A stretch of 52,148 nucleotides of DNA. It comes from Chloroherpetonaceae bacterium (GTDB lineage: Bacteria > Bacteroidota > Chlorobiia > Chlorobiales > Thermochlorobacteraceae). The notes under the pieces were generated by a model that was not told the DNA's origin, did no database searches, and saw only the letters and a list, made by a program, of their open reading frames with translations. The stretch lies in contig JANRJQ010000012.1 in NCBI GenBank assembly GCA_033763895.1, positions 1-52,148 on the forward strand, in the 5' to 3' direction. Numbering within the stretch: the stretch's first letter is position 1; each line of letters opens with the position of its first letter. Positions 6,655 through 31,866 of the stretch are shown in pieces. A program made the translations under genes and the position numbers.

Positions 6655-6683
6655 AAAGAGGCTGATTTCAGTCTCTTTTTTTT
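6655..6683 (+). terminator. Rho-independent terminator after accC
   Basis: An 11-base stem (AAAGAGGCTGA at 6655-6665 and TCAGTCTCTTT at 6668-6678, with one G-U pair) with a tight loop runs into eight T residues. It ends the efp-accB-accC unit. Its T-run overlaps the stop codon of the converging UbiA gene by two bases, so the two convergent units share almost no spacer. Confidence 0.82.
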
Positions 6684-7542
6684 ATCCAACTGCAAACGAG
6701 AGAAGCGCAAATAAAAACGCAATTTTCTGAAGATTATTGATTTGATGGAGGGTTTGCGGGGTGTGACTTCCAAAGGATTGAAATGTCCCATAAAGTGTGA
6801 TGCCTGCAAAAATGAAAATCAGAATTGCATAAAGAAAAGGTCGTTTCAAGGGATAAGTATCAAGAATCATCAACGGTGAAATCGCCCAAAGAATGGCGAG
6901 ACCTTGGATAAATGCAATGATGAAAAGGGCTTTTTTGATCCCGATTCGTGTTGGTAAAGTTTCAATACCGCCGGCACGATCGCCAATGATGTCCTCTGCA
7001 TCTTTTAAGATTTCTCGTGCAAATACGGCTATGAAAGTTAATCCTGCGGGAAAGAGCAACTTCGAATGAAAATCTGTAAAAAGTGCCCCAAAACAAATCG
7101 ATGCTGAAACAACGAGTGCGACCACCAAATTTCCTAAAACAATCACGCGTTTCATCCAACGGCTATACACATAGAGAAGAATTGCAGAAAAAAAAGCAAT
7201 TGCAAATGCTGCAAAACTAACTGAAAAAGATAAGAGAACCGCAAGTGAATTGAATATGGCCCACGCATAAATCGCAACGCTTTCAGAAATTTCTCCCAAA
7301 ACCAAAGGTCGAAGCGGCTTATTGATACGGTCAATTTCGATATCAAAAACATCGTTGATGATGTTCGCAGCAGCACCAACCAATGTTCCTGATAAAACCA
7401 ACATCCAAAACCCGTCGTCCGAAAAAGCCGTTGAGCCTTGAAGGATGATTCCGCCAAGAGCATTGGCAAAAATGAAAAGTAAAACATTTGAAGGACGGGC
7501 TAAACTCCAAAGTCCATTGACCTGTTGAAACACGCGAGTCAT
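6682..7542 (-). CDS. UbiA-family prenyltransferase (second of a tandem pair)
   Basis: An integral-membrane prenyltransferase of 286 residues with eight or nine hydrophobic helices. Both Asp-rich metal-binding motifs of the UbiA superfamily are present: NDVFDIEIDRINKPLRPL (about residues 64-81) and DAEDIIGDRAGG (about 182-193). The first resembles archaeal-type digeranylgeranylglyceryl phosphate synthases more than UbiA (hydroxybenzoate) or BchG (chlorophyll synthase). Its start overlaps the stop of the upstream paralogue by four bases (ATGA), so the two are translationally coupled. The substrate is not determinable; lipid, quinone or chlorophyll-type acceptors are all possible. Confidence 0.82.
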   Translation of the reverse strand: MTRVFQQVNGLWSLARPSNVLLFIFANALGGIILQGSTAFSDDGFWMLVLSGTLVGAAANIINDVFDIEIDRINKPLRPLVLGEISESVAIYAWAIFNSLAVLLSFSVSFAAFAIAFFSAILLYVYSRWMKRVIVLGNLVVALVVSASICFGALFTDFHSKLLFPAGLTFIAVFAREILKDAEDIIGDRAGGIETLPTRIGIKKALFIIAFIQGLAILWAISPLMILDTYPLKRPFLYAILIFIFAGITLYGTFQSFGSHTPQTLHQINNLQKIAFLFALLSFAVG

Positions 7543-8450
7543 AAGTTGATTAATTCGCCAAGGAATATGGCCAAGAGCCCAATAACCATTGACAGTTTAA
7601 GCATTAAGCTTGAGTATGAAACTCTTTGAAAAAAGAGGGCTTCACTTTTTCTCACTTGATAAATTCTAAAAATTGCATAAAGTGTTACGCCATCAGAAAT
7701 CAAAACAAAAATGAGATAACCGACGCCCCAAACACCCTGGAAATACGGAAGGAGAGAGAGCGCAAAGAGAACCCCCAGAATTAAAAGCAAAAGGCTTGAA
7801 GATTGTGAGAATCCAAAAACTACTGGAAAGGTCTTGGCATTATTAGACCTATCTCCGTTGATATCCTCCATATCTTTGAGGAGTTCACGAAGTAAGGTGA
7901 TGAAAAATGCAAATAGCATTGCATAAAGCAGCGCGAAAACTGAAGAGCCGCTGAGTTGATCGTAAAAGGTGGTATTTGCAGAAGCCCCAAGAGCAATTAC
8001 CAAAGCGACATCCAAAGCTACGATCATGTTTCCGAACAGTGGCGTTTGTTTGAAATAAAAGCTGTAAAGTGTCCCGGTAACGGCAAAGAAGAGAGCGATG
8101 AAAAACGATTCAAGGGTTTGATTTTGAATTGAATAATAAAACGGAAGTAATAAGCCAATGCTTATTGTAATCCCATAAATCCAAAAAGCAGTCGTTTTCG
8201 ATATTGCTTGCGTAACAAGGGGTCTTGAAGGTCGGTTAATTCTATCAATCTCGATATCTATTATGTCATTGATGGTATTGACAGCCGCTGCGAGGAAAAC
8301 CGCTGCGATGGAAAGCAACCAGACGCCTGATTGAAAGAATTCATCTCGATTAGATCGTGCAATCAAAGACCCCAAAAGTGATCCTAAGAAAAAAACAGGT
8401 AAATTAACAGCGCGGATAATCGTTAATATGGCGAGTAGAGATGACGTCAT
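7539..8450 (-). CDS. UbiA-family prenyltransferase (first of a tandem pair)
   Basis: A 303-residue membrane protein homologous to its downstream neighbour. The motifs are NDIIDIEIDRINRPSRPL and DMEDINGDRSNN, followed in both proteins by a T-(F/L)-P segment, so the pair arose by duplication or joint recruitment of close paralogues. Eight or more hydrophobic helices surround them. The enzyme should attach a polyprenyl chain to a membrane-embedded acceptor. It is the first gene of a two-gene unit, divergent from queG with a 71-base spacer. A polyprenyl diphosphate synthase that could make the donor is encoded at 45.1 kb. Confidence 0.82.
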   Translation of the reverse strand: MTSSLLAILTIIRAVNLPVFFLGSLLGSLIARSNRDEFFQSGVWLLSIAAVFLAAAVNTINDIIDIEIDRINRPSRPLVTQAISKTTAFWIYGITISIGLLLPFYYSIQNQTLESFFIALFFAVTGTLYSFYFKQTPLFGNMIVALDVALVIALGASANTTFYDQLSGSSVFALLYAMLFAFFITLLRELLKDMEDINGDRSNNAKTFPVVFGFSQSSSLLLLILGVLFALSLLPYFQGVWGVGYLIFVLISDGVTLYAIFRIYQVRKSEALFFQRVSYSSLMLKLSMVIGLLAIFLGELINL

Positions 8451-9508: not shown

Positions 9509-10642
9509 TTATTCAGATTCTGTAGTGAGCGTAACATAAGGCTCAAGAATCTTAAATCGCTCTCGGTTAACCCCGCGAATAAATTTCAATTCCGAGATGG
9601 TCTTAAACCCGCCGTAGTCCTCTCGGTATTGTAAAATTCGTTTCGCGATTTGCGTTGTCATCGTAGGCAAGAGCATGAAATCATCAAGCGTTGCGAGATT
9701 CAAGTTGATTTTTTTTCCTTGTTGCAATTCTTGCTTAGGCGAGAGAAAAATATCTTCGATGAAATCGTTGATTTCTTCATCGGTATTTTCGGGTGTATCG
9801 GCTTTCCCAAATCGAAATGAAAAAGAGAGTTGATGGCTGAGACCAAGGTCGGGGTGATTGAGTGCGGCATAATCGATGTCAAAAAGTGAATATCGAAATC
9901 CAAACCCTGCGGTGAGTTGACTTGGTGTCGCGTTGGCAGCGGTAAAATTAAATCCACTGCGAATAGCAAAAAATGGAATCGGGAAGTATTCAACCCCCGA
10001 TTTTATTAGCAAGGGGAACTTAACATCCTTCTCAAAATCTACTAAAAATCGCAGTTCATTTGTTATCCGATAGGCAACGCCGAGTGTGTAAGTTTGTGCT
10101 GCAGGTTCTTCTACAATGCCGTAGCTTGGGGCATTCAGATTAAACGCTGAAAATCCAAGAGAAAGCTCTGGCGTAATAAAGGTGAGAATGCCCAAATCAA
10201 TTCCAAATGCGCCGGCACTTCCATAATTCAATGCTGTAATTCGGTTGTAGGAGAGGGTTACCCCAACAAAAAATCGTTTGAAGAAATTATTTGCGTAACT
10301 GATAGAAGCCATTGTTTCATTATATAAATCAAATCCATAACGCGAGGCCGCAAGCCCAAGCGAACCATAATCGCTGAGTATCTCCGGATCTAAATAACTG
10401 AAACTAAAATGATTTAACTCAGAAATGCCATAAGGTGCGGCATAAAAAAAACTGGCTTGTCGGAAGGGTACACTTGCTAACCCGGCGGGATTATAGAAAA
10501 TGGCCTCTGATGAATTTGAAAGCCCGGTAAAAGCACCACCTACACCAATCGCACGGCCTCCGCGATCAAGCCGAGCGGTTTGAGAATGCAATCCCGAGGT
10601 GCCAAGGGCAAGCGCAAACATGAAAACCAATAAGCGGTGCAT
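9509..10642 (-). CDS. PorV-like outer-membrane beta-barrel fused to a ComEA-type helix-hairpin-helix domain
   Basis: A 377-residue exported protein. A signal peptide (residues 1-20, ending ...GLHSQ) is followed by the hallmark start of PorV/UPF0164-type barrels, GGRAIGVGGAFTGLSNSSEAIFYNPAGLA, and about 230 residues of alternating strands ending at a FSFRFG strand. After an acidic linker (about 270-300) the last 65 residues are a ComEA-like helix-hairpin-helix repeat: INLNLATLDDFMLLPTMTTQIAKRIL, then YREDYGGFKTISEL and a second hairpin. ComEA domains bind DNA in competence proteins. Fusion to a barrel is unusual; it may be a DNA-binding outer-membrane protein or just a protein-interaction module. 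Confidence 0.75.
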   Translation of the reverse strand: MHRLLVFMFALALGTSGLHSQTARLDRGGRAIGVGGAFTGLSNSSEAIFYNPAGLASVPFRQASFFYAAPYGISELNHFSFSYLDPEILSDYGSLGLAASRYGFDLYNETMASISYANNFFKRFFVGVTLSYNRITALNYGSAGAFGIDLGILTFITPELSLGFSAFNLNAPSYGIVEEPAAQTYTLGVAYRITNELRFLVDFEKDVKFPLLIKSGVEYFPIPFFAIRSGFNFTAANATPSQLTAGFGFRYSLFDIDYAALNHPDLGLSHQLSFSFRFGKADTPENTDEEINDFIEDIFLSPKQELQQGKKINLNLATLDDFMLLPTMTTQIAKRILQYREDYGGFKTISELKFIRGVNRERFKILEPYVTLTTESE

Positions 10643-10731: not shown

Positions 10732-11451
10732 ATGTCATACTTAATTAGGATACTCGGTTTACTTATCTTCATTCCACTTTTTCCTTCAAAAGATAACACA
10801 GAAAATATTGCCCTTGTATTAAGAAAATTCGGGTCAGTTAAAACCCTAGAAAAATCAGCCAATTGGGTCGAAATAGAACGAGGGAAGCCAATTTCCGCGG
10901 GAACAGCTGTTAAAACCGATAAAAGTGGAACAGCGATTCTAAAATATTTTGATGGAAGCATCTTTCGGATTAGCGAGGAAACAGAAGTGGTAATCCGAGG
11001 AAATAACACCGGAAAAGAAGATGCTGCTCGAGAAATTGAAATCAACGTTGGTAAATTTGGGTTTGAAGTAAAGCGAAGAGAAAATCAAGTGTTTAAATTT
11101 ACTTCAAGCACTTCTGTAGCCTCCATTAAAGGAACTGAAGGTGTATTTGAATCAAAAAATGACTTCTCGGAACTGACCATTATCTCAAGCGAAAAGCCTG
11201 ATGATGCTGCCGAACTTATTGATATTCGCAGCGGTGAAAAAGTCATTGTAAAGGTTGGTGAAAACGCCCGCTTCGATTTCGGTACCCGTAAATTCAGAGT
11301 ACGAAAAATTACCAACCGCGAAAGGCGAATCATGAAACAACTGATTGGCCAAAATGAAAACCCGGAAGAAGAAAAGATTCGACCTGAACGGCTTGATCAG
11401 CGAAAAGAAAGGCAACAAAAGGCGAAAGAACGACGAAATCGAAATGAATAA
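10732..11451 (+). CDS. Exported FecR-domain protein
   Basis: A 239-residue protein with an N-terminal signal or anchor (about residues 3-19) followed by a FecR domain. The domain shows the typical order: a GSVKTL strand, ISAGTAVKTDKSGTAILKYFDGSIFRISEETEV, IEINVGKFGFEVKRR, and FKFTSSTSVASIKGTEGVFE. The C-terminus (about 190-239) is strongly charged, with many Arg, Glu and Lys. Classical FecR proteins are anti-sigma factors with an N-terminal cytoplasmic segment; this one has none and no FecI-type sigma gene beside it. It is therefore more likely a stand-alone periplasmic domain protein. It is divergent from the PorV-ComEA gene. Confidence 0.75.
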   Translation: MSYLIRILGLLIFIPLFPSKDNTENIALVLRKFGSVKTLEKSANWVEIERGKPISAGTAVKTDKSGTAILKYFDGSIFRISEETEVVIRGNNTGKEDAAREIEINVGKFGFEVKRRENQVFKFTSSTSVASIKGTEGVFESKNDFSELTIISSEKPDDAAELIDIRSGEKVIVKVGENARFDFGTRKFRVRKITNRERRIMKQLIGQNENPEEEKIRPERLDQRKERQQKAKERRNRNE

Positions 11452-14146: not shown

Positions 14147-14737
14147 ATGTCACTTGAACTCGATAAAGAATCGTATTTGATGGAAGCCGCAAAGAACGGC
14201 GATGATCGTGCGTTCGCCTTACTGATTAAACCGTATGAATCAAAAGTATTTGCATTGCTTTTGAGATACTCCGGAAATCCTACCGATGCCGAAGATTTGT
14301 TTCAAGAGGTATTTCTTCGGGTTTGGAAATCGCTCAAAGGGTTCGAATGGCGAAGTTCATTTTCAACTTGGTTGACAAGAATTGCGATCAATGCTGCAAT
14401 TTCATTTCAGAGTAAAAGACAAGAGGTTCAGTCACAATATATTCCTACTGAAATTGAGCTACAAAATGAGGAGTCAATGTCTTCGAATCAAGCCGAGATT
14501 GGTTTCAAAGCAAGCCTTTCCGACGAACACTCACCTCTCAAAGAAATTTTGGATGCTGCTCTCAAAAAGCTTTCACCACAGATGCGAAGTGCGTTGCTTT
14601 TGAAATATCAGGAAGGGTATAAAATCAAAGAAATTGCTGAAATATTGAATTGCTCGGAGGGTGCTGTTAAGCGATATCTCTTTGACGCCACCCTTAGAGT
14701 AAAGGAAGAATTGGTTTCCAAAAAAGTGTTGCGTTGA
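14147..14737 (+). CDS. ECF-type RNA polymerase sigma factor
   Basis: A 196-residue sigma-70 family protein with only regions 2 and 4. Region 2 contains YSGNPTDAEDLFQEVFLRVWKSL and WRSSFSTWLTRIAINAA (about residues 42-85). Region 4 contains LLLKYQEGYKIKEIAEILNCSEGAVKRYLFDA, a clear helix-turn-helix (about 149-182). It heads a three-gene set with a membrane HEAT-repeat protein 51 bases downstream and a DUF4097 protein after that, ended by a terminator. By analogy with other ECF operons the next gene is the likely regulator. It should direct transcription of envelope or stress genes, including its own operon. Confidence 0.92.
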   Translation: MSLELDKESYLMEAAKNGDDRAFALLIKPYESKVFALLLRYSGNPTDAEDLFQEVFLRVWKSLKGFEWRSSFSTWLTRIAINAAISFQSKRQEVQSQYIPTEIELQNEESMSSNQAEIGFKASLSDEHSPLKEILDAALKKLSPQMRSALLLKYQEGYKIKEIAEILNCSEGAVKRYLFDATLRVKEELVSKKVLR

Positions 14738-14788
14738 TTGGATAATGATTAAATCGGAAAATAGAGTTTTCAAAAAGGAGCATTTTAT

Positions 14789-15898
14789 ATGACCAACGAA
14801 CAATCGGGTAGCAATCGAGCTCATACTGGTTTGACCCGTGAAAGACTAAGAGAGTTGTATCTCGCAATTTTATTGAACGAAGCTAGTATTGAAGAAAATC
14901 GGCTCTGGCAATCGGCGATAGAAAAACCTGAAACTGCCTCACTGGCTCAGTCAATTAAAGAAGAATTGGATTCCCTTACAGGTTTTCTTACAAACGAATT
15001 CAGTCGGCCGCTATCAGAAGGAGAAACGGCTTTGCTTGAAAAGGCGCAGTCAAAACTGTCGGTTTCGCTTAAGAACACCGGTTCACCCGAGCGATCAAGA
15101 CTTAAGAACAATTCCTTTTTCGCGAAGCTCTATAATCCATTTCTGAATTTATTGGCCTCCTTCGATACCGAGAATGAGCATCAAGATCATGAAAATGAAC
15201 AGGCGAGATTTGGAATGCCTGCACTTGCACTAACGGGTGTTGTGATGTTGATTTTAGGAGGGTTTATAGGCTACTCAACCTTTGCTGTGGCTTCATTTTT
15301 TAGGGGAGAATTGCCGGTTTCTCAAAGCGCTGCCGTTCCAATTACAGATAAAGAAGAATTAGCCAACATTCGTTTTTCTTTTTCGGAAAATGAGACAGAT
15401 CCCATTCGTGTGCAATACGATCTCATAACGCATGTCGAAACCAAAGGTACCTTGAATCAAAGCCGGATTAAAGAATTGTTGCTTTACGCCGTTAACAAAG
15501 AGCGAAACCCCGGCACTCGACTTGATGCACTCAGCGAACTGCAAAAAATTCCGAGCATCTTTAATGATCAGGATATCAAAGAAGCGTTGATTAAAGCCTT
15601 GAAATCGGATCAAAACGATGGAGTTCGAAATCAAGCGTTGGCACTTCTTTTGGAGTATCAACCTGATTCTGAAATTAAAATGGCGTTGCTTTATTCCTTG
15701 ATGAATGATCGAAATGCGGGGATTCGTATTGCCTCATTGAATTCACTGCTCTCCGTTGGACTTACGGGAGAAAAGTTTGACGAAGAGGTTTTGGCATCCC
15801 TAAAAAAGAAAATTCAAGAGGATGAAAATAAATACATCCGCTACCGCGCCAATGCCTTATTTGATGAGGCTCCACCTGAAATTGAAGAAAAGAAATAA
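14789..15898 (+). CDS. Single-pass membrane protein with HEAT-like repeats, candidate anti-sigma factor
   Basis: A 369-residue protein with a strong AAGGAG ribosome binding site (14775-14780). An N-terminal helical region (residues 15-100), presumably cytoplasmic, is followed by one membrane span (about 144-171) and a C-terminal region of helical repeats (about 205-369) with the HEAT pattern seen in DGVRNQALALLLEYQPDSEIKMALLYSL and NAGIRIASLNSLLSVG. Position right after the ECF sigma gene and the topology fit an anti-sigma factor or its partner, but I see no clear zinc-binding HxxxCxxC motif, so it would be a divergent type. The HEAT region could sense a protein in the periplasm. Confidence 0.7.
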   Translation: MTNEQSGSNRAHTGLTRERLRELYLAILLNEASIEENRLWQSAIEKPETASLAQSIKEELDSLTGFLTNEFSRPLSEGETALLEKAQSKLSVSLKNTGSPERSRLKNNSFFAKLYNPFLNLLASFDTENEHQDHENEQARFGMPALALTGVVMLILGGFIGYSTFAVASFFRGELPVSQSAAVPITDKEELANIRFSFSENETDPIRVQYDLITHVETKGTLNQSRIKELLLYAVNKERNPGTRLDALSELQKIPSIFNDQDIKEALIKALKSDQNDGVRNQALALLLEYQPDSEIKMALLYSLMNDRNAGIRIASLNSLLSVGLTGEKFDEEVLASLKKKIQEDENKYIRYRANALFDEAPPEIEEKK

Positions 15899-15934
15899 TC
15901 ATAAATTTTAATTGTAACTAAAACAGATTTCGCT

Positions 15935-17260
15935 ATGAAAAATAAACTTGAATTTTGGATGAATCATCGCTTAGAAATTGCTTGGGATAAGGTAGTTCCA
16001 GCACTGGTCTTGTTTTGCGCTTTATCGGTGGTATCGCTTTATGCCTCACCACTGTCTTCTGAAATGCCTCTTGTGCAAAAAGCTAAAGAAGCAAAAAAGG
16101 ATGAGAATGTAGAGGTTACAAAAACTTTTCAAGTCACCAAAGGTGGCACGCTTGAAGTTGTAACCGATATGGGGGAAATCCGAGTTTCGACCTACGATAA
16201 GAATGAAGTCACCGTGAGTGTTTCAGGCTATGACGAAGAAGATGTGGATAAAATCAAGATAACCCAACTAGGCAATACGGTTCGCGTGACATTTCGCGTT
16301 CGACGAAACATCAACGGATGGGGTAGAGGCGGCAACGACGTTCGCTTTGATGTAAAAATACCTTCTCAATTCAATTTGGATCTTCGCACCTCTGCCGGTG
16401 ATATTGAGCTAAGTGGTGCCATTATTGGCGAGGTTAAGCTCAATACTTCCGGCGGTGATTTGCTCGGCAGCGATATCACAGGAAATATCGATGCCTCAAC
16501 TTCAGGTGGCGATATTCGCTTTGGTACTGTAAAGGGGAATGGATACATCAAAACTTCCGGCGGTGATATTTCCCTCAGCGATGTTGGGGGTGATTTAGAA
16601 GTGAAAACGGCGGGTGGAACCATCCGTGTCAACAATATTGCTAAAACGCTCCGTGCCAAAACAAGCGGGGGTGATATTCAAATAGGCGATGTAGGTGGTG
16701 AGGCTACGCTTTCAACGGCAGGCGGCGATTTGCGCGTTGGAAAAGTGAATGGCCGCGCATCACTCTCGACTGCCGGTGGAAATATTGAAGTACGCGGGGC
16801 TCAAGGCTATGTCAATGCAAAAACCAGCGGCGGCAGCCTTCGATTGGAAAACATCACTGGATCTATCGACGGAAAAACCGCTGGTGGTGATATTTACGCA
16901 GAGCTTACTCCCGAATCTTCCGGAAGAACGATGCTCGCCTCTTCAGCCGGAAACATCGAGCTATTCGTGACTGAAAATGCAAAGGCCAATATCCAAGCCA
17001 AGATTCGGGTTGCAAGCTTTGGCAACTATTACAATTGGGGTAGAAGAAGATCAGACAGGAGCAAAAAAGACAGTGGTTTTAATATTCACTCTGATTTTCC
17101 AGCTACGACTCAAAATGTCAGCGGCGAGGAGGAATCAACAAGCAATGAAATCTTTGAAAGTTATGTCTTGGGTGGTGGTGGTCATATCATTAATCTTGAA
17201 ACAGTGATGGGAAATATCTACATCCGAAAAGCGCGAAAATCATCAAGCTCGGGAAAGTAG
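15935..17260 (+). CDS. DUF4097-type beta-solenoid protein
   Basis: A 441-residue protein with an N-terminal hydrophobic signal or anchor (about residues 20-37). From about residue 152 it carries a regular 18-residue repeat whose core is T-(S/A)-G-G-D-(I/L); I count ten copies plus a final SAGNI, coded by 16388-16900, nine spaced exactly 18 residues apart (one 19). This pattern is characteristic of the DUF4097 'putative adhesin' family and implies a right-handed beta-solenoid. It is the last gene of the ECF sigma operon, so it is probably an envelope-stress or surface protein. A basic, Ser/Lys-rich tail ends the protein. Confidence 0.8.
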   Translation: MKNKLEFWMNHRLEIAWDKVVPALVLFCALSVVSLYASPLSSEMPLVQKAKEAKKDENVEVTKTFQVTKGGTLEVVTDMGEIRVSTYDKNEVTVSVSGYDEEDVDKIKITQLGNTVRVTFRVRRNINGWGRGGNDVRFDVKIPSQFNLDLRTSAGDIELSGAIIGEVKLNTSGGDLLGSDITGNIDASTSGGDIRFGTVKGNGYIKTSGGDISLSDVGGDLEVKTAGGTIRVNNIAKTLRAKTSGGDIQIGDVGGEATLSTAGGDLRVGKVNGRASLSTAGGNIEVRGAQGYVNAKTSGGSLRLENITGSIDGKTAGGDIYAELTPESSGRTMLASSAGNIELFVTENAKANIQAKIRVASFGNYYNWGRRRSDRSKKDSGFNIHSDFPATTQNVSGEEESTSNEIFESYVLGGGGHIINLETVMGNIYIRKARKSSSSGK

Positions 17261-30516: not shown

Positions 30517-31866
30517 CTACTTTACAAGCATCATTCGTTTCGTTTCTGAAAATGCGCCGGATTGCAAACGATAGAAGTAAACTCCGGAGGGAAGAATTGA
30601 GGCATTAAATCGTACACTGTAACTCCCGATTTCTTTGGTTTCATTGACAAGTGTTTGCAATTCACGGCCAAGAATGTCAAATACTTTTAATGTTACCAGA
30701 CTTCGTGCACCTAATGAATAATTAATTTGTGTCGAAGGATTGAAGGGATTTGGATAGTTTTGAGCCAATGCAAATCGTGATGGTACGCCAGAAACCTCAA
30801 GGATTGGTGAGTATTCAAATTTTCCGTCAAAATCAACTTGCTTTAGCCGATAATAAACTTTTCCGGCGGCGCTTCGGTCGAGAAAGGAATATCGCTGACC
30901 TTCCGTTGTTGTTCCTTTTCCTCGAATAAAACCAAGGTTTGAAAAGGCCACTTGATCGTTTGAGCGTTCAATAAAAAAGCCTTGATTGTTGATTTCCGAA
31001 GCGGTTTCCCAAACCAATTCAACCGTGCCATTTTTGAAAGAAGCATTAAAGGAGGAGAGCTCAACTGGTAAGGTTAATTCGGAAGTGAAGACATCTCCTG
31101 TATTTAATTGACCGGGGTTTTGACCGAGATTGCTTGCACTTGTTATTCCGGGAACAGCTTCATTCGACCAAAAAGTAGGGTTTCCTGTATTACCTAGAAC
31201 TGCAAAAAACTTAACGCTTTGCGATGCATTCACACCCGGTAAAGCACTGAGCGGAATCGACATTTCTAAGCCTTGCGCGGTTGCCCCGGTCGTGTTTGAA
31301 TTGTCGTAAGCAAAGGTAATTGTATTTGCTCCCATAAACAAAGTGTCGGCTGAAGAAGGCCCCGTTACCGAAGAAGTTGATGAAAGCGATGTTTGTCCGA
31401 TAAATGGCCGTGTGATGATATTTGTCGAGCCATATCGAATCATATCAAGATAAAGGTTTGTGCCATCTCGGTTTATCCAAATTAGATAATCAGCTTCCAT
31501 CCCATTCAAAGTAAGATTGGTATTGTTTGCGGCAGTCGGACCATTGAAACTTCCGCCTCCGCTCAAACTTCCGCCAACATTCGACCCCGCTGCACGTCCG
31601 CCGTATCCCGAGAAGTCCATAAAAATTGCAATTCCATTATTTGCATCCAAGGTTCCTGTTACGGCTAAGTAAAGGTTTACCCCATCATTGTAGGTTCGAA
31701 TGCTGTAAACGGCATTGGTACTTCCAAATCCATTGTTGGAATTTGTATTAAACACTGAAGTATATGCCGTTTCATTTGCATTTCCGTCAATAACCGGAAC
31801 TTGCGCATGTATCTTGCTTGAAACGATGAGCAAGGAAAGTAAAAAAACGATAGATAGTCTTTTCAT
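30517..31866 (-). CDS. Secreted protein with type IX secretion C-terminal sorting domain
   Basis: The ATG at 31866 gives a clean signal peptide (MKRLSIVFLLSLLIVSSKIHAQ), so I prefer it over the frame start at 31926; 449 residues. The N-terminal half (PVIDGNANETAYTSVFNT..., about 22-260) is rich in Asn, Gly and Ser and looks like a beta-sandwich of the CBM9/DOMON-like type. A short fibronectin-like part (LSSFNASFKNGTVELVWETASEINNQGFFIERS) follows. The last 80 residues, LAQNYPNPFNPSTQINYSL to SGVYFYRLQSG, are a type A T9SS sorting domain, so the protein is exported by type IX secretion and probably surface-bound. Confidence 0.88.
   Translation of the reverse strand: MKRLSIVFLLSLLIVSSKIHAQVPVIDGNANETAYTSVFNTNSNNGFGSTNAVYSIRTYNDGVNLYLAVTGTLDANNGIAIFMDFSGYGGRAAGSNVGGSLSGGGSFNGPTAANNTNLTLNGMEADYLIWINRDGTNLYLDMIRYGSTNIITRPFIGQTSLSSTSSVTGPSSADTLFMGANTITFAYDNSNTTGATAQGLEMSIPLSALPGVNASQSVKFFAVLGNTGNPTFWSNEAVPGITSASNLGQNPGQLNTGDVFTSELTLPVELSSFNASFKNGTVELVWETASEINNQGFFIERSNDQVAFSNLGFIRGKGTTTEGQRYSFLDRSAAGKVYYRLKQVDFDGKFEYSPILEVSGVPSRFALAQNYPNPFNPSTQINYSLGARSLVTLKVFDILGRELQTLVNETKEIGSYSVRFNASILPSGVYFYRLQSGAFSETKRMMLVK

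Follow-up and report, generated by a model that had tools for sequence, protein, structure and literature searches.

A FadL/PorV-fold outer-membrane barrel carrying a ComEA-type helix-hairpin-helix domain in a Chloroherpetonaceae bacterium, and its possible links to type IX secretion

Annotation routinely labels helix-hairpin-helix (HhH) domains as DNA-binding and "competence-like", and the finding of such a domain at the end of an outer-membrane barrel raises the question of what the combined protein does. The question is posed by a gene in a stretch of 52,148 nucleotides (hereafter the window) from a Chloroherpetonaceae bacterium. A sequence-only reading had described its product as a PorV-like barrel fused to a ComEA-type HhH tail and had proposed a role in DNA uptake or tethering, while also recalling that PorV-like barrels serve the type IX secretion system (T9SS).

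Architecture and predicted fold

The gene is a single uninterrupted ORF of 377 aa on the reverse strand, flanked by genes on the opposite strand and without an operon partner. Its parts are the following:

9509..10642 (-): whole gene, outer-membrane barrel plus HhH protein, 377 aa (ORF, orthologues)
10583..10642 (-): predicted signal peptide, residues ~1-20, ending ...LHS/Q (sequence; hydrophobic, poorly conserved start)
10463..10573 (-): N-terminal plug segment, residues 24-60, with the NPA motif N51 P52 A53 (alignment of relatives, model)
9809..10462 (-): predicted 14-stranded beta-barrel, residues 61-278, with short and well conserved outer loops (model, PDB matches, conservation)
9713..9808 (-): predicted periplasmic linker, residues 279-310, with a helix at 284-299, poorly conserved (model, conservation)
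9530..9712 (-): ComEA-type double HhH, residues 311-371 (Pfam, model, alignments)

The tail is matched by Pfam HHH_3 at residues 308-371 (48.1 bits, E 1.3e-12, cut-off 27) and is therefore a tandem HhH, although the comE model TIGR01259 (37.0 bits, cut-off 152.35) and the ComEA-repeat model TIGR00426 (31.5 bits, cut-off 53.1) stay under their cut-offs. The barrel is matched by NCBIfam PorV_fam at residues 27-277 (58.9 bits, E 6e-16), below the cut-off of 90. The PorV and PorQ models give 14.4 and 22.3 bits versus cut-offs of 250 and 220, Pfam TraF_2 (PF13729) is sub-threshold with 23.8 bits versus a gathering score of 25, and UPF0164 matches the 377-aa protein weakly. Assignment to the PorV, PorQ, PorV2, TraF or ComEA family is ruled out by these cut-offs. 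Among solved structures, a sequence search placed the HhH proteins EEPD1 and ComEA nearest, with the tail alone aligned.

The structure prediction that the sequence-only reading had called for was made with AlphaFold from an alignment of 16 relatives (mean pLDDT 84, pTM 0.72). The model has 14 strands over residues 61-278, a helix at 284-299 and then an HhH domain at ~311-371, so that both the fusion and the HhH fold of its tail are borne out. The end of the barrel had been placed at about residue 270, which is close; in the model the last strand ends at ~278. Since the number of strands is even, both barrel termini should lie in the periplasm and the HhH tail with them, in agreement with the side that had been supposed.

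Foldseek returned chain F of 8gl6, a type 9 translocon, as the top PDB match and 6h3i_F as the third. With a second structural aligner the PorV chains 8gl6_F and 6h3i_F scored Z 32.3 and 31.9 and FadL 31.7, which is a tie, and three chains of the Bacteroidota BAM complex (9n2d_B, 9hjm_F, 9hiv_F) scored Z 25-26. A sequence-level match of the 377-aa protein to the BAM chains, BamG included, was looked for and none was found. As modelled, the barrel has the FadL/PorV fold, which leaves PorV versus FadL undecided; the 14 strands and the N-terminal plug with NPA motif that mark the FadL superfamily are both present. Compared with PorV and PorQ, the T9SS shuttle and attachment barrels (NF033709, NF033710, NF033711), the protein shares the fold, the plug, a T9SS-bearing host and, through its tailless homologues, linkage to porD, but it falls below all cut-offs, its outer loops are short and it has a C-terminal HhH domain that PorV lacks. 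From the FadL family, BamG included, with which it has the strand number, the NPA motif and structural scores of Z ~31 in common, it differs by its shorter loops, its HhH tail, its genetic context and the lack of a sequence-level match.

Within the order Chlorobiales the fusion occurs as one frame in 10 other genomes from three families, with 37-50% identity. A joining of two genes by sequencing error, which would have undone the original description, is thereby ruled out. The NPA motif of the plug does not vary among the 16 aligned relatives, and the majority frequency per region falls from the outer loops (0.71) and strands (0.67) through the HhH domain (0.61) to the periplasmic turns (0.52) and the linker (0.51). 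Identity is lower in the tail (36-50%) than in the barrel (42-60%); the HhH domain has 7 invariant residues, and HHH_3 scores reach 72 bits among the relatives. The Chlorobiaceae (family f4) possess a distant tailless relative of the barrel in only 8/49 genomes.

Distribution, gene pairing and origin of the tail

Of 394 genomes of the phylum scanned with a profile, 269 gave a match. The strong-fit matches are tailless barrels of ~270-300 aa, with the exception of family f5, in which the genomes G061, G065, G069 and G073 encode a fusion of ~400 aa; a clear HhH tail is present in the three of them that were inspected (G061, G065, G069). The barrel is an unnamed family of the FadL/PorV superfamily, conserved across Bacteroidota, which in the window's genome has its own, by its predicted topology periplasmic, (HhH)2 domain.

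Several matches of the phylum scan crossed a stop codon into a next frame opening with HhH, because the tailless barrel gene usually directly precedes a gene for an HhH plus large-barrel protein. Among 39 sampled loci outside the order (the top-scoring L062-L080 and L137-L156, spread down the ranking), the large-barrel gene lies directly downstream of the tailless barrel gene in 35 and porD lies next to the latter in 33. The 19 top-scoring loci have the large-barrel gene downstream in 16, two of which (L069, L075) encode a large barrel without HhH itself, and DUF4835/PorD on the other side in all 19; the corresponding counts for the 20 spread loci are 19 and 14, with the position in L137 and L143 taken from the phylum scan since an overlapping ORF masked the barrel frame in the filter. 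The porD neighbour was identified by PF16119 (252.7 bits) and T9SS_PorD (239.1 bits, cut-off 170). PorD, a periplasmic component of the T9SS translocon, binds PorW/SprE, as described for P. gingivalis and F. johnsoniae (PMC8754138, PMC10994853). In nearly all loci porD is divergent, and often the HhH-barrel gene lies on the opposite side, an arrangement that makes a candidate three-gene T9SS-associated cluster.

The large-barrel proteins form an unnamed family of ~660-740 aa with an N-terminal HhH, conserved across Bacteroidota. In a structural model (pLDDT 74.6) the HhH at the N-terminus precedes a large beta-barrel, and a PDB search with this model returned only unspecific TonB-dependent-receptor and AlgE matches. 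The window's genome has its own copy of 741 aa (C10:582617-584719; L084:5498-7723); in f5 the gene was not found in G065 and was weakly matched in G061. These proteins resemble the fusion in that an HhH sits on an outer-membrane barrel, and they are the neighbours of its tailless homologues, but their HhH is N-terminal, their barrel is about twice as large and the copy in the window's genome lies elsewhere. HhH domains are found at two places on outer-membrane barrels, at the N-terminus of a large one and at the C-terminus of a small one, and the second arrangement has apparently arisen twice.

In a tree of the barrel domain the fusions of the order form one clade (support 0.99) and those of f5 another (0.95). 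Since tailless members stand between them, the HhH tail was probably acquired two or more times, unless many losses occurred. In a tree of the 60-residue HhH domains the tails fall slightly nearer to ComEA than to the HhH of the large barrel; support is weak and the tree was not relied on for the origin of the tail, which, taken at face value, it would not trace to the large-barrel partner. A contig scan with the single protein, using six peptide patterns, matched distant proteins with the PorV fold and a single stand-alone HhH protein but no fusion, a set of patterns too narrow to show absence outside the phylum. In the open-access literature searched, no account of a barrel-HhH fusion or of the barrel pair was found; the kinds of component are known (FadL/PorV fold, ComEA-type HhH, PorD neighbour), and it is their combination and the pair that those papers do not describe.

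Inside the order no conserved operon was found around the fusion, the neighbours varying between genera. The order's fusion genes adjoin neither porD nor the large-barrel gene, and in the window's genome the large HhH barrel (on C10) and PorD (on C14) are both encoded far away. A gene for a FecR-domain protein of 239 aa (window 10732-11451, +) is divergent from the barrel gene and 89 bases off; in the relatives read, no such neighbour stands beside the fusion.

Type IX secretion, competence and the residues of the tail

Among 25 relatives, SprA (TIGR04189) and PorD are present in exactly the same 12 genomes (families f1-f3), of which 11 have the tailed barrel, the twelfth being an 81%-complete bin with fragments of it; the remaining 13, all Chlorobiaceae, lack SprA, PorD and the tailed barrel alike. 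In the window's genome SprA scores 1302 bits and PorD lies at C14:237490-238338. The T9SS sorting domain (TIGR04183) is matched 62 times in this genome, against 31 and 35 times in two relatives and not at all in two Chlorobiaceae, so that the host has both the SprA translocon and sorting-domain substrates. The window itself contains one such domain at 30529-30756 (-), E 1e-11, within a frame of 471 aa. The association of the fusion with T9SS within the order is clear, but phylogenetically it may represent a single event, namely loss in the Chlorobiaceae. The large HhH barrel is retained in Chlorobiaceae without T9SS.

Competence genes, whose presence the sequence-only reading had suggested checking, were found: ComEC occurs in 25/25 relatives, stand-alone ComEA-like proteins occur both in the T9SS-bearing families and in the Chlorobiaceae, and the window's genome has its own stand-alone membrane ComEA. 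In genome G034, which we take to be Chlorobaculum tepidum TLS, ComEA and the large HhH barrel were found and the small barrel is absent. C. tepidum is routinely modified via natural transformation (PMC3842273). For Riemerella anatipestifer, the Bacteroidota model of transformation, the part of the transposon-screen report consulted lists as essential ComEC, DprA, ComF and RecA, together with an HhH protein of the periplasm and an outer-membrane protein that has a carboxypeptidase-regulatory-like domain, and that part does not name a barrel of the present kind (PMC8459023). A secretin (PF00263) was sought in five genomes of the order (G000, G009, G012, G011, G017) and none was found, which leaves the order's outer-membrane DNA channel without an identified candidate, even though C. 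tepidum takes up DNA. The same five genomes have ComEC in all cases and ComEA-like proteins in nearly all.

In ComEA of V. cholerae, K63 (with K62) of hairpin 1 is needed, and the substitutions G60V/E and K63A/E are disabling (PMC3879209). The tails were aligned to it by hairpin, with G60 placed as the second glycine of GIG from residue numbers. In 14/14 tails the G60 position is occupied by T, S or N; at the K63 position stand L, I, A, V or Q, with K/R in 0/14. No tail has the second glycine of either hairpin, and every tail retains the first one of hairpin 2; in the present protein hairpin 1 reads PTMTTQI and hairpin 2 GVNRER. Most tails of the order have basic residues at the tip of hairpin 1 (PKMTK, PRMTR) and their mean net charge is +2, whereas the f5 tails are net negative. 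Given these basic tips and charges, and given that the order's own stand-alone ComEAs likewise lack K63, the residue comparison is evidence against DNA binding and not decisive. The tail had been called DNA-binding-like: its HhH is indeed of the ComEA type, but the equivalents of G60 and K63 are missing throughout, and the label appears weak. Compared with ComEA, the periplasmic DNA receptor of competence, the tail shares the double HhH of HHH_3 and, by predicted topology, the periplasmic location, but it is fused to a barrel and not to a signal or membrane anchor, it has lost the hairpin glycines and lysines, and a separate ComEA is encoded in the same genome. Such tails, which lack the DNA-contact residues known from ComEA, contrast with the routine annotation of HhH domains. 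Among the stand-alone ComEA-like proteins themselves (L016, L042, L043, L047 and L048 versus L103-L114), those of Chlorobiaceae have GIG (or GVG) at each of the two hairpins and a strongly basic character (mean net +7), and in those of the T9SS-bearing families the hairpins are eroded and the mean net charge is +2.4.

Candidate roles of the barrel and its tail

We lean, at somewhat less than even confidence, towards a reading in which the small barrel and the large HhH barrel would form an outer-membrane pair beside T9SS, with the HhH as a periplasmic docking module that is here fused in cis. In most of the phylum the small barrel is tailless and the next gene encodes the large barrel with its N-terminal HhH; in the T9SS-bearing families of the order the two barrel genes have moved apart and the small barrel has an HhH in cis; and in f5, whose large-barrel gene lies elsewhere or has diverged, the small barrel again has its own. 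The HhH would act as a protein-docking module in the periplasm, coupling the small barrel to the large barrel and/or to periplasmic parts of the T9SS translocon, while the conserved plug and outer loops of the small barrel would perform a surface-side task, for example to handle or anchor a putative substrate that is secreted or sits at the surface. The points counted for this model are a fold closest to PorV (with the FadL tie), the linkage to porD and the large-barrel gene, the two cis fusions, the co-occurrence with SprA and PorD, the 62 sorting-domain matches and a tail without the DNA-contact residues of ComEA. Of the two functions initially brought up, the link with type IX secretion is the better supported.

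Counted against the pair/T9SS model are the possible single evolutionary event behind the T9SS match within the order, the position of the order's fusion beside neither partner gene, the HhH-domain tree, which as far as it goes does not favour an origin of the tail from the large barrel, and the short outer loops, unlike the described cargo-binding loops of PorV. Because the large barrel persists without T9SS and 8/49 Chlorobiaceae keep a tailless relative, neither barrel is strictly T9SS-bound. The more ambitious version, a two-barrel outer-membrane machine (small PorV-fold plus large HhH barrel, beside porD) that would work with T9SS across the whole phylum, with the HhH as a periplasmic protein coupler fused onto the small barrel in two clades, seems to us rather doubtful. 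If the pair does belong to T9SS, it would be an unstudied component found across the phylum.

The structural tie leaves room for a FadL-like channel for hydrophobic small molecules, with the HhH as a structural plug or periplasmic tether and no T9SS partner. The equal scores of FadL/TodX and PorV (Z 31.7 versus 32.3), the conserved NPA plug motif, also present in FadL (2r4o is a FadL NPA deletion), and the weak UPF0164 and TraF_2 matches speak for such a channel; a simple channel would not be expected to pair phylum-wide with the large HhH barrel and porD, and the well conserved outer loops suggest a partner, so that we consider it unlikely. BamG is also a FadL-family barrel of Bacteroidota (PMC12611786), and the resemblance of three BAM-complex chains to the model could be taken to indicate a BamG-like accessory subunit in outer-membrane protein assembly; with PorV and FadL fitting better (Z 32), no BAM chain matching at sequence level and short loops, this is highly improbable.

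DNA uptake or tethering, in which the barrel would admit or hold DNA at the outer membrane and the tail would ratchet it inward like ComEA, draws on the HHH_3 and ComEA-model matches of the tail, the basic hairpin 1 and mean net charge of +2 of the order's tails, the presence of ComEC and ComEA, and an outer-membrane step without a known channel in the five genomes lacking a secretin, a gap that the pair would fill if it belonged to DNA uptake. We nevertheless judge it improbable, and the original proposal is not supported: the genome has a stand-alone ComEA of its own, C. tepidum transforms without the barrel, the fusion tracks SprA and PorD and not ComEC, tailless homologues predominate in the phylum, the f5 tails are net negative, and the G60 and K63 equivalents are missing from all tails. 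A similarly small probability attaches to neutral accretion, by which the tail would stem from read-through fusion with a ComEA-type gene and have no special role. The lower conservation of the tail, its variable linker and its absence from most of the phylum would fit such an origin, but the tail is kept in 10 relatives of three families, has apparently arisen again in f5, and retains 7 invariant residues and HHH_3 scores of up to 72 bits.

Two further groups of genes were noted elsewhere in the window. A tandem pair of UbiA-family prenyltransferase genes with a 4-base overlap occupies 6682-8450 (-). At 14147-17260 (+) follow, in order, an ECF sigma factor, a HEAT-repeat protein and a repetitive 441-aa protein without Pfam match, a trio that looks like a cell-envelope regulatory unit.
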